Below, in pieces: positions 16,420 to 28,895 of a stretch of DNA of 33,341 nucleotides. A model generated the notes under the pieces. The model did no database searches and was not told the origin of the DNA. It saw only the letters and a program-made list of their open reading frames with translations. The DNA comes from a bacterium. GTDB lineage: Bacteria > Patescibacteriota > Patescibacteriia > JAHIZJ01. Numbering within the stretch: the first letter of the stretch is position 1; each line of letters starts with the position of its first letter. The position numbers and the translations under genes were made by a program. The DNA lies in assembly GCA_030699685.1 (NCBI GenBank), contig JAUYLJ010000019.1, positions 1 to 33,341 of the forward strand, given 5' to 3'.

Positions 16420-16572
16420 ACCCCAAGGACGGCACCACCGCCCTATTTTCACATGCTTGACGAAGCGCTAAGAAAGTGGTCTGCTTGATGGTTGTGACGC
16501 TTGAATCGCTCGAAAAAGACCGCCCTTCGACAACTGAATACCCTGAAACACTCTAAAGAAAGGAGTGCTCTC

Positions 16573-17121
16573 GTGCGCAAGCCCACACTGTTCCTCCTCT
16601 CAATCCTTCTCCTCCTGGCGGCTGTCAAGCCCAGCCAGGCCGAGTGCGCTATCACCCAGCAGCAGCTGAGTGCTGGACACCAAACCGCTGTTTCCGACAC
16701 CTACGTCCTGCGTGGTGTGATCGGCGGGCCCGTCATCGGACCGATCGAGAACTTCAACTGGTATCTCCTCCAGGGTTTCTGGAGGCAGACTGATGAGACC
16801 ACCTCAGACGTGGCCATGAGCTCCAGCACCTACAGTCTGGCGATCTCACCTCCGTCTCCGAACCCGGCTCGCTCCGGCTCCGCGATTCACTTCACAGTGA
16901 CAGGAAGCGGCACGGACTCACAACCCGTCCAGATAGTCATCTACGATGTCTCCGGCCGGCGTATCCGCAATCTCGTCAATGGCCCTCTTCAGGCTGGACC
17001 ACACGAGATCACCTGGGACGGCAAGAACAACAAAGGTTATGGAGTCGAGTCCGGCGTCTACTACTGCCGGTACTCAAGCCAGGGAAAGACCCTGGTGAAA
17101 TCCCTCGTGGTTCTGAAGTAG
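16573..17121 (+). CDS. Secreted protein with FlgD-Ig-like / T9SS-type C-terminal sorting-like domain
   Basis: GTG start after an aaaggag SD; signal peptide RKPTLFLLSILLLLAAVKPSQA; C-terminal VQIVIYDVSGRRIRNLVNGPLQAGPHEITWDGKNNKGYGVESGVYYCRYSSQGKTLVKSLVVLK. Confidence 0.8.
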   Translation: MRKPTLFLLSILLLLAAVKPSQAECAITQQQLSAGHQTAVSDTYVLRGVIGGPVIGPIENFNWYLLQGFWRQTDETTSDVAMSSSTYSLAISPPSPNPARSGSAIHFTVTGSGTDSQPVQIVIYDVSGRRIRNLVNGPLQAGPHEITWDGKNNKGYGVESGVYYCRYSSQGKTLVKSLVVLK

Positions 17122-17159: not shown

Positions 17160-19595
17160 ATGCGCTCCCTGATCCGTCTGTTTCTCCTGGCCAGCCTCAT
17201 GCTGGCCTGTCTTCCGGCCTTGACGCTCGCCTCCGACGGCATCACCTACCAGGGTCATCTGACCCAGGATGGGGAAGTCCCGTCTGACGGCAACTACCTC
17301 TTCCACTTCGAGCTCTACGACGCTCTCGAGAACGGCTCCTCCCTCTGGAGCCAGGAGGATTCCCTTCTGGTCACCCAGGGAGTGGTCAACACCGTCTTCG
17401 AGAACTTCACGCCTGATTTCTTCACCCAGCATCCTGAGGTCTACCTGGCAGTCACCCTGAATGGTGATCTGCTTACTCCCCGCACCCGGCTTGAAGCCGT
17501 CCCCTATGCCTTTGAGGCTGGACATGCCGCCCTGGCTGATTCTTGCATCAACTGCGGAAACGGATCTGGCGAAGACGGATTCTGGTCGGCAACGGGAGAC
17601 GACATCCACAACACCAACACTGGCAGCGTGATCATCGACTCACCATCAGCCCAGCCCAAGCTTGAGCTCAAGGGAGATGGAGCGATACTGCGTCACACGA
17701 ATGAGGGGAACACCTTGTACGAGGTTGGCACGAATAACGGTCAGCCCCTCTTGCGGATGAACCGATCCGACGGTACCGCAGTCTTTCGTGTCGACGGTGA
17801 CAATGGTCGGGTCGGGATTGGTATCGACATACCCGCTTCTCCACTCCATGTTGTAGGTGATATCTACAGCCAGAGTGGAAGGGTCCGGGCAGAAGGCATG
17901 CCGATCGGAACGAACAAGCTTCAGTCATTCCGTGACGACGGATCAAGCAGTATCGGCACATGGACGGATCCGGCCAACCCTGCGTCCAAGTTCGCAGTAT
18001 TCAACGGTGACGACGGGCTGTATCTCACTACTGACTGGGGCGACAACAACCACTTTGTGGCTTACAGCAATATGGCCGGAGTGGGCCTGGGGGTTGACGC
18101 TGAGCTGAAGCCCGAAGTACCAGCCGTAACGCTTGCCCTCCGGCAGCCCAACACCGGTTTCCACTATGCAGGGAGCGGCACGATTGCCTACATGGCCAAT
18201 AGCGTGGAACGTCTTCGCTTCTCCAATAATGGAAACATGGGAGTTGGCACCACATCACCGGCCTATCCCTTGGACGTAAACGGCGTCATCCGGTCGTCCA
18301 GCGGCGGGTTCCGCTTTCCTGACGGCAGCATGCAAATCACGGCGGCCGGCTCGGGATTGTGGTCAGCGAATGGCGACAATATCTACTACAACAATGGGAA
18401 TGTAGGGATTGGAACCAGCAGTCCGGGCGCCAAACTTGCCATCAATTCCACCTGGCCACACCTCCGAGTCTCCAACGGATCCAGCCACTGGGAGATTGGT
18501 GACAACGTTGGGACCTTCTATTTCCGTGAGAGCGGGACGTCTTCTGGACAATTCCGCATTCGGCGCAATGACAATACTGACATGTTTGTTGTAGACGTCC
18601 CCAGCGCGAATGTGGGTATTGGAACCACGACTCCGTCCAGCAGGCTCTACGTTGCCGGAAGCTCCAGTAGCAATCCAGTTTTGAGAGTTGAGCAGAATTC
18701 CACCCATGAAGGAATTCTGGCAACATCCAACTCCGTGCAAACTGTGAAGGGCGCCGTCCATGGCAAAATCACTGCTACCTCTGGCGGTGGGAGTGGCGTG
18801 TTCGGCGAAACAGCAAGCCCGGGTGTAGAAGGTGGAGCAGCTGTTGGCGTGTACGGTTTGTGCACGCACAACGAAAAGTCCGTCGGTGGGGCAACGCTTG
18901 GTGTCCTTGGCCGTGTTGCAGGGTACCAAGAGCCAAACACCGGCACCTCGGTTCCCGTTGGCGTGTTCGGCGAAGCCACCCATACTACAGGTATTGCCTG
19001 GGGTATGGCTGGTGAAACCTATTCCACCAACAACCGCGCTTGCGGGGTAAAGGGCACTTTGCGCATAGCAAATTCTACCGGTCGTGCCGTATGGGGCGAT
19101 GCGTCGAACTCCTTCAACACTGGCTACGCCGGCTACTTCGACGGACGTGTGCATGTCACAGGCACCATCACTAAAGGTGGCGGCGCGTTCAAGATCGACC
19201 ACCCACTCGACCCGCAAAACAAGTACCTGTACCACTCTTTCGTGGAGTCGCCGGAAATGACCAACCTGTACAACGGGACGGCTACTCTGGACGCTGACGG
19301 CACCGCGTGGGTACAGATGCCTGAGTGGTTCGAGGCGCTCAACCGTGACTTCTCGTACCAGTTGACCGCTATCGGTCAGCCGGCGCCGTCGCTCTATGTG
19401 GCGGACGAGATCTCCGGTAATCGCTTCAAGATCGCGGGCGGCAACTCTGGCCAGCGCGTGAGTTGGCAGGTCACAGGCATCCGGCACGATCCGTACGCTG
19501 AAAAGTATCGGATCCCGCTGGAAGAAGACAAGCCAGGCCCGGAACGCGGGCAGTACTTGCACCCGGACGCATACAAAACGGCTGACTCTCGCTAG
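17160..19595 (+). CDS. Large secreted fibre-like protein with repeated (N/R)xGIGTxxPxxxLxV motifs
   Basis: SD aaggaaagg; signal peptide MRSLIRLFLLASLMLACLPALTLA; GITYQGHLTQDGEVPSDGNYLFHFELYDALENGSSLWSQ; four GIGT-type motifs; GVYG/GVLG/GVFGE block; C-terminal FKIDHPLDPQNKYLYHSFVESPEMTNLYNGTATLDADGTAWVQMPEWFEALNRDFSYQLTAIG. Confidence 0.85.
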   Translation: MRSLIRLFLLASLMLACLPALTLASDGITYQGHLTQDGEVPSDGNYLFHFELYDALENGSSLWSQEDSLLVTQGVVNTVFENFTPDFFTQHPEVYLAVTLNGDLLTPRTRLEAVPYAFEAGHAALADSCINCGNGSGEDGFWSATGDDIHNTNTGSVIIDSPSAQPKLELKGDGAILRHTNEGNTLYEVGTNNGQPLLRMNRSDGTAVFRVDGDNGRVGIGIDIPASPLHVVGDIYSQSGRVRAEGMPIGTNKLQSFRDDGSSSIGTWTDPANPASKFAVFNGDDGLYLTTDWGDNNHFVAYSNMAGVGLGVDAELKPEVPAVTLALRQPNTGFHYAGSGTIAYMANSVERLRFSNNGNMGVGTTSPAYPLDVNGVIRSSSGGFRFPDGSMQITAAGSGLWSANGDNIYYNNGNVGIGTSSPGAKLAINSTWPHLRVSNGSSHWEIGDNVGTFYFRESGTSSGQFRIRRNDNTDMFVVDVPSANVGIGTTTPSSRLYVAGSSSSNPVLRVEQNSTHEGILATSNSVQTVKGAVHGKITATSGGGSGVFGETASPGVEGGAAVGVYGLCTHNEKSVGGATLGVLGRVAGYQEPNTGTSVPVGVFGEATHTTGIAWGMAGETYSTNNRACGVKGTLRIANSTGRAVWGDASNSFNTGYAGYFDGRVHVTGTITKGGGAFKIDHPLDPQNKYLYHSFVESPEMTNLYNGTATLDADGTAWVQMPEWFEALNRDFSYQLTAIGQPAPSLYVADEISGNRFKIAGGNSGQRVSWQVTGIRHDPYAEKYRIPLEEDKPGPERGQYLHPDAYKTADSR

Positions 19596-19649: not shown

Positions 19650-19677
19650 TTGACGCCAAAGGTGAATCTGCTAGTCT
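19650..19677 (+). promoter_or_regulatory. Promoter of the small ORF at 19716
   Basis: TTGACG (19650-19655), 16 nt, extended -10 TGcTAGTCT (hexamer 19672-19677). Confidence 0.5.
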
Positions 19678-19715
19678 GGAGATGGACCAGGACCGCGGCA
19701 ATGAAGGAGGATGAA

Positions 19716-19988
19716 ATGTCGCTAGCAATACAGAAATACCGCAAGTGGGTGGGGATGTCAGTACGGTTCCGGCGTTTGAATAAGCAGGGCAGGCGCATGA
19801 TTGAACTGGGGTTTCCTGATGGGATCATTCGCAATCTGACGCGAGGCACGGATCGGGCCGTGTTGTTCGAGATCGAGTTTGGTCCGGCCGGTTCGACCAG
19901 ACGCACGCTCTTTTACCGGCGAGCCTTCATCGTACATGATTCCTGCGGCCGCCGTGCGCCACCCCAGGCCACGACCGGCTCCGGATAA
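19716..19988 (+). CDS. Small uncharacterised protein
   Basis: ATG 5 nt after aaggagg (19704-19710); MSLAIQKYRKWVGMSVRFRRLNKQGRRMIELGFPDGIIRNLTRG...; flanked by two terminator-like hairpins. Confidence 0.65.
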   Translation: MSLAIQKYRKWVGMSVRFRRLNKQGRRMIELGFPDGIIRNLTRGTDRAVLFEIEFGPAGSTRRTLFYRRAFIVHDSCGRRAPPQATTGSG

Positions 19989-20012: not shown

Positions 20013-20504
20013 TTATTTCTCCTGCGCGTAAAATAACTCTTCGACCTTTCTCAGATCATCGATTGGTTCGTTTTGATAACTTGCCTCGAGTAGCTCGCCT
20101 TCGCTTTTGGCCTCCATCACGATGTTCCAGAGTCCGACCTGATTGTTGTATTGGCAATCGGGGAAGAACAGGTGATGATGCCAGCTCTGGCCCGCGCCGT
20201 TCAGTGTTTTAGCTTTAGCCAGTATTTTATTCAGGGCGGGATTACTGACAGCCGCCGCCGAGCTTTGCGTGATTTCTTTGCCATGCAGCAGCTCGACCAG
20301 CTGTTTGCCGATAACAAAAGGCCGTTCATCAGTTAAACAGAAGAGAGTTTCGGTGGTATTAGTGTTTTCGAGCACCAGGCTGTGTTTGTCGTTGAGCTCG
20401 TTGAACAAACAATCGGGCGTAAACATATGGAAGTGCCATTTCTGGCCTTCTGATTCCCACGCCTTGGCCGCGGTGACGGCTTCTTGGAGAGTGATCTCTT
20501 TCAT
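20013..20504 (-). CDS. Uncharacterised protein with duplicated GQxWHxHxFxPDCxxN motif
   Basis: EGQKWHFHMFTPDCLFN and AGQSWHHHLFFPDCQYN in one 163-aa ORF, both followed by similar hydrophobic strands. Confidence 0.8.
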   Translation of the reverse strand: MKEITLQEAVTAAKAWESEGQKWHFHMFTPDCLFNELNDKHSLVLENTNTTETLFCLTDERPFVIGKQLVELLHGKEITQSSAAAVSNPALNKILAKAKTLNGAGQSWHHHLFFPDCQYNNQVGLWNIVMEAKSEGELLEASYQNEPIDDLRKVEELFYAQEK

Positions 20505-20767: not shown

Positions 20768-20843
20768 TGGTGGGCGCAGAGGGACTCGAACCCCCAACCG
20801 TTGGCTTAAAAGGCCACTGCTCTACCGTTGAGCTATGCGCCCA
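20768..20843 (-). tRNA. tRNA-Lys (anticodon UUU), 3' CCA encoded
   Basis: Minus strand TGGGCGCATAGCTCAACGGTAGAGCAGTGGCCTTTTAAGCCAACGGTTGGGGGTTCGAGTCCCTCTGCGCCCACCA; 7-bp acceptor, TTCGAGTC T-arm, loop CTTTTAA. Confidence 0.95.
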
Positions 20844-28400: not shown

Positions 28401-28895
28401 ATGAATCATTCAACCAAGACCATGTCCATACCCAAAAAATTCACCAATTATCTCGAAAAGAACCAGGTCAAATACGACGTGGTGGAGCATCGTACGGTCT
28501 ACACGGCCTACGATTTATCGCAAACCCTTGACCGAAAAATGACGGATATTGCCAAGACACTGCTAGTCAAGGTTGACAACGGATTGGCGTTGGCGGTCTT
28601 GCCGGCCTCAAAGCGTTTGGATTTAATCAAACTCAAGAAACTGGCCAAAGCCAAGAAAGTTGGGTTGCCTAAAGAGAATGTTATGAAAACCAAGCTGAAG
28701 ATCAAACCCGGGGCGATCACGCCTTTCGGGAAAATGCACAAGCTGCCGGTCTATATGGACGCAAGTTTGAAAAAGCCGAAAAAGATTCTTGTCGGCGCGG
28801 GGTCTTTTGACGAATCATTTTTGATAACGCCGGCGGCCTTGATCAAACTTGAGGAACCGGTCATTGGGTCTTTCAGTCAAGCTAGAAAAAAATGA
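28401..28895 (+). CDS. YbaK/ProX-type aminoacyl-tRNA deacylase-like protein
   Basis: VEHRTVYTAYDLSQTLDRKMTDIAKTLLVKVDNGLALAVLPASKRLDLIKLKKL; alternative start 28422. Confidence 0.85.
   Translation: MNHSTKTMSIPKKFTNYLEKNQVKYDVVEHRTVYTAYDLSQTLDRKMTDIAKTLLVKVDNGLALAVLPASKRLDLIKLKKLAKAKKVGLPKENVMKTKLKIKPGAITPFGKMHKLPVYMDASLKKPKKILVGAGSFDESFLITPAALIKLEEPVIGSFSQARKK

Follow-up and report, generated by a model that had tools for sequence, protein, structure and literature searches.

What does this locus encode, and does the motif that is repeated in its product define a domain of its own? The stretch of DNA analysed here (the window) is a contig of 33,341 nucleotides from a bacterium of the Patescibacteriota. 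A reading frame on its minus strand carries two copies of a motif with His and Cys residues. A preliminary description had put it forward as an orphan protein built from a candidate undescribed domain.

A tandem of two homologous domains

The 163-residue reading frame with both motif copies was found as described (Table 1). Two genomes of the window's family carry full-length homologues, with 56% identity in G001 and 50% in G002, and we therefore regard it as a real gene. The two halves were then aligned, as the preliminary description had advised. When one half was compared with the other by BLASTP, they were homologous over 72 ungapped columns with 28% identity (E=7e-11). Profiles of the N- and C-terminal domains, with six sequences each, matched each other with 99% probability (E=3e-18). 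The window protein was also shuffled 200,000 times and none of the shuffled sequences contained two WHxHx5C motifs. We conclude from these results that the two motif copies are not due to chance. The window gene is a tandem duplication of an undescribed domain of about 75 residues with an alpha-beta-beta-beta-alpha topology.

Table 1. Positions of the two-domain gene, its parts and the neighbouring tRNA gene in the window
Feature	Positions	Strand	Basis
Tandem two-domain protein gene (type A), whole	20013..20504	-	163 aa, ATG start
N-terminal domain, residues 1-77	20274..20504	-	AlphaFold2 model; alignment with natural single-domain proteins
First motif GQKWHFHMFTPDCLFN, residues 20-35	20400..20447	-	W23, H24, H26, C32 and N35 invariant in 24/24 two-domain proteins
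Glu46 codon, second strand, candidate further ligand	20367..20369	-	24/24 two-domain proteins; invariant in the single-domain alignment
C-terminal domain, residues 88-161	20022..20243	-	AlphaFold2 model; homologous to the N-terminal domain
Second motif GQSWHHHLFFPDCQYN, residues 105-120	20145..20192	-	W108, H109, H111, P115 and C117 invariant in 24/24
Glu131 codon	20112..20114	-	Invariant in 24/24 two-domain proteins
tRNA-Lys(TTT) neighbour	20768..20842	-	ARAGORN; 263 bases upstream of the gene, same strand

The residues named in Table 1 were invariant in all 24 two-domain proteins, one of which (L048) has its C-terminal end cut by its contig. When single-domain proteins and halves were combined in a mixed alignment, Trp, both His, Cys and Glu were again invariant, and the pattern W-H-x-H-x(5)-C with the downstream Glu was kept in every complete domain copy of both kinds. 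The preliminary description had listed His, His, Asp and Cys as the conserved residues and had named variation of the His and Cys positions among homologues as evidence against its proposal. Such variation was looked for, and the two His and the Cys are kept in every complete copy, whereas the Asp of the PDC segment varies across the family. In the wider family, the Trp and the downstream Glu have to be added to the invariant set.

The neighbours were also as reported. The gene is flanked by the tRNA-Lys and by a small unassigned reading frame (19650-19988, plus strand; 112 residues), which adjoins it and had no match in Pfam or NCBIfam. In G001 and G002, too, ARAGORN placed a tRNA-Lys no more than about 1.5 kb away from the gene, so that all three window-family genomes have one nearby. 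Elsewhere in the window, the product of 16501-17121 has a FlgD Ig-like domain and matches the Por_Secre_tail sorting domain weakly, and next to it, at 17160-19595, an 811-residue protein without a Pfam match is encoded. A free-standing aminoacyl-tRNA editing domain protein of the YbaK/ProX type (PF04073, E 1.9e-25) is encoded at 28401-28895.

Distribution and forms of the family

The term orphan turned out to be wrong, since the protein belongs to a sparse but widely distributed family with informative gene contexts. We compared 34 members, of which 24 have two domains and 10 a single one; they come from Patescibacteria (CPR), DPANN archaea, one Anaerolineae genome and plasmids of Rhizobiaceae. 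In the window's class, 13 of the 381 genomes had members in profile searches, and a sample of the phylum yielded 4 further ones. A pattern scan of GTDB added Woesebacteria, two Woesearchaeota, another archaeon, Aenigmatarchaeota and the Anaerolineae genome, and searches of archaeal phyla brought more archaeal members. A translated search of plasmids yielded relatives in Shinella and Sinorhizobium that align to 91% of the query at about 40% identity. A sample of Chloroflexota contained no member beyond the Anaerolineae one already found. The family is sparse and spans two domains of life, which suggests horizontal transfer.

Three forms were distinguished. Type A, the form of the window, has 160-180 residues and the motif order WHFH then WHHH; type B has 150-160 residues and the order WHHH then WHFH; the stand-alone single-domain proteins have 74-89 residues. 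In the domain tree, the A-N, A-C, B-N and B-C groups were cleanly apart and their deep order was unsupported. The motif order of the two types looks swapped, and the tree was examined for one versus two duplications; AU tests rejected none of the groupings (p 0.22-0.44). A copy in G131 (L036 / L020) is decayed, with a single motif and several in-frame stops, and the gene is thus dispensable in that lineage. Two candidates were set aside. An archaeal uS17-like reading frame (L075, G1353) carries the look-alike HFHAHNPDC...E and matched the domain model at E 3.5e-5; it is a different protein and the likeness is probably due to chance. A match in G877 lies inside an unrelated protein of 441 residues.

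The proposal that the domain is undescribed was supported in the libraries covered, where no characterised family matched; such a match was the other finding that the preliminary description had named as evidence against it. The window protein had no Pfam match even at E values up to 10, and the family had no significant match in NCBIfam, PHROGs, PADLOC or PDB sequences. Weak matches to PDB sequences (rat RAP, AF-10 and the association domain of CaMKII with 'WKWHFHQLTP') were judged to be chance. A description of the family was not found in the literature searched, which lay mostly outside subscription papers. No member was found in IMG/VR or phage records, none was significant in PHROGs, and a Foldseek search against viral models gave no match at E 0.01 or better; a viral or phage origin was rejected on these grounds. 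A domain with five invariant residues is thus common to tiny-genome bacteria and archaea and also to the culturable Shinella, and the libraries searched contain no model of its family. The Shinella copies, such as the protein WP_241949867.1, provide a test organism that can be grown, for a family that is otherwise mostly found in uncultured lineages.

Gene neighbourhoods

A regular context was seen with the single-domain form. Eight of the nine archaeal single-domain genes (in G1273, G1231, G1347, G1308, G1317, G804, G975 and G1360) sit exactly between pheS and pheT, with gene ends that abut or overlap, and the ninth lies behind an SMC gene. The identity of PheS and PheT was confirmed with Pfam in the loci scanned. 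In genomes of the same phylum that lack the gene, pheS abuts pheT directly wherever both ends were readable. The pheS-X-pheT order occurs in two archaeal phyla, and the six cases that fall into one of them may be a single inherited event.

The type B gene is found directly behind dnaK in G014, G055, G036, G140 and G160 and one to two genes away from it in G065 and G026. Other members have neighbours from the tRNA and synthetase machinery. The gene in G063 has argS 12 bases upstream, the L048 member is divergent from leuS, a tRNA-Arg abuts the member in G653, and a tRNA-Pro adjoins those in G431 and G558. A tRNA or synthetase neighbour was counted in about 6 of 14 lineages where about 11% would be expected (p ~0.003, calculated post hoc with an assumed base rate).

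The members of Shinella, Sinorhizobium and the Anaerolineae genome are found in catabolic neighbourhoods with a TPP-dependent dehydrogenase, an SDR, an oxidoreductase and an amino-acid ABC transporter. The loci L135 and L138 on Shinella plasmids and L046 of the Anaerolineae resemble each other across two phyla, with E1 subunits of a TPP-dependent dehydrogenase nearby. Several CPR and DPANN members lie in mixed accessory operons, with neighbours that include a nitroreductase, an SDR, a NUDIX protein and a hydrolase. The catabolic and mixed contexts make it doubtful that all members have a single role in translation.

Predicted fold and possible functions

The AlphaFold2 model of the window protein, built on 16 sequences, had a pLDDT of 93.2 and a pTM of 0.86 and contained the alpha-beta-beta-beta-alpha unit twice. 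The N-terminal domain is predicted with a helix at 6-18, strands at 23-28, 41-47 and 53-58 and a helix at 63-74, and the C-terminal domain with a helix at 89-103, strands at 109-113, 126-132 and 137-143 and a helix at 148-159. The model of a type B protein had the same order of helices and strands (pLDDT 86.8). The W-H-x-H segment falls in predicted strand 1. The alternation of W-H-F-H in this strand predicts the Trp and Phe on one side and both His on the opposite side, and we infer that the loop Cys and the strand 2 Glu, both invariant, would be adjacent to the two His.

Foldseek, which had also been suggested for the AlphaFold model, returned weak neighbours only and no close structural match for the window or the type B model (whole-chain TM of 0.45 or less). 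With the window model, the SRP9/14 fusion 1914 came first (E 2.7e-3, probability 0.99, whole-chain TM 0.45, rmsd 8.5), followed by tandem dsRBDs and single SRP9/14 chains, the latter with TM up to 0.59 by target length. With the type B model, the tandem dsRBD of PKR came first at E 6.4e-4 but with a TM of 0.21, and SRP9/14 was ninth with a TM of 0.44. We read this likeness as the shared topology of small RNA-binding-type folds and not as homology. In our interpretation, this is an undescribed domain family that combines a common small-fold topology with a new set of invariant residues.

These first ranks raise the possibility of a nucleic-acid binder, in which two SRP9/14- or dsRBD-like units would sit on tRNA or structured RNA and the conserved residues would serve RNA recognition or fold stability. 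The SRP9/14 heterodimer is made of alpha-beta-beta-beta-alpha units (PMC8230904), two per functional particle, and both subfamily models match this topology. Tandem dsRBDs have the same helix-strand-strand-strand-helix order and rank high with both models in Foldseek, and the tRNA and synthetase neighbours would fit as well. We nevertheless consider such a role rather improbable. The whole-chain TM values are below 0.5 (about 0.45 for the window and 0.44 for type B) with a large rmsd, neither the SRP9/14 profiles nor dsrm of Pfam matched even at E 10, and helix 2 does not begin with the basic KKxAK cluster of dsRBDs in the alignment. The concave sheet of SRP9/14 is lined with positive residues (PMC8230904), whereas the new domain has its invariant His, His, Cys, Glu and Trp in proteins that are mostly acidic to neutral; with a pI of 5.1 for the window protein, a simple RNA binder is not suggested. 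Bacterial and archaeal SRP are without SRP9/14 (PMC8137916).

The invariant residues resemble an active site, and with the patchy distribution, the catabolic setting on the Rhizobiaceae plasmids and in the Anaerolineae genome, and the nitroreductase, SDR, NUDIX and hydrolase neighbours, the protein could be a small metalloenzyme or redox protein for small molecules that has spread as an accessory metabolic gene. Its placement at pheST and dnaK would then be incidental, which is hard to accept for eight of nine archaeal single-domain genes and a repeated dnaK linkage, and the metabolic neighbourhoods point to no common substrate. We see this as an unlikely explanation, about one chance in four being our estimate. 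Among enzymes with similar residues, HUH Rep/relaxase nucleases also have an HxH on a strand and a conserved acidic residue, and REP_ORF2-G2P gave very weak matches (E 0.23 and 1.9). In contrast to these nucleases, the tyrosine is not invariant, with Y, H or F at its position (LFYGR, LFHGR and IFFKR, single-domain members), and no HUH protein was recognised among the Foldseek matches listed for the two models. The AlphaFold2 model also differs from a cupin, as its alpha-beta-beta-beta-alpha units include no beta-barrel carrying HxH and Glu.

A gene inside pheST or beside argS, leuS and tRNA genes might encode a trans-editing factor, a free-standing helper of synthetase editing that hydrolyses mischarged tRNA. 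The PheT of G1347 (L082, 2698-4140), which is encoded next to a single-domain gene, has a B3/4 editing domain that is shorter by about 95 residues; this gap could be an assembly problem instead of a real deletion. The other six of the seven PheT proteins compared from gene-bearing genomes keep the B3/4 region (with Pfam hits partly below the curated cut-off), so a replacement of the PheT editing domain was rejected as a general rule. The fold of the new domain is presumably unlike that of YbaK, AlaX or DTD, and we regard trans-editing as highly improbable.

The explanation that we favour, tentatively and at somewhat less than even chances, is a tandem of an undescribed His2-Cys-Glu domain that is probably metal-binding and that acts as an accessory partner protein, in DPANN of PheRS. 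It draws on the invariant Trp, His, His, Cys and Glu, the duplication, the same topology in two subfamily models and the pheST, dnaK and tRNA contexts. Judged from the conserved positions, the two His, the Cys and the Glu probably form a metal-binding or active site. In each domain, both His of strand 1 would face the open side of the sheet and, with the Cys of the loop between strands 1 and 2 and the Glu of strand 2, would make up one small metal site (2-His-1-carboxylate plus Cys). The preliminary description had suggested two metal sites or one pseudo-symmetric site; one site per domain is favoured because the natural single-domain form carries the complete H-H-C-E set. The single-domain forms may act as homodimers, of which the tandem would be the covalent version.

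The protein would assist other machines as a partner that is accessory and dispensable, and would not be a stand-alone pathway enzyme. For type B Patescibacteria, it would belong with the DnaK gene cluster, and the partner in Patescibacteria may be a chaperone or the translation machinery. A translation-linked role of the window's type A protein is doubtful, with a link to tRNA or a synthetase as the best guess. In DPANN, the position of the gene inside the pheS/pheT operon makes phenylalanyl-tRNA synthetase the most likely partner, and from the gene order we give the single-domain form an even chance of being one. The domain is not known as a part of PheRS, either as a subunit or as a domain, and PheS and PheT carry their usual domains. 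More speculatively, and with a probability that we put low, the single-domain form would be an unrecognised metal-bearing third component of PheRS in some DPANN, and the window tandem would be its equivalent in bacteria, duplicated and serving other synthetases or tRNAs. The pheS-X-pheT order makes the function of an uncharacterised gene directly accessible to experiment, on an essential enzyme that is among the best studied.
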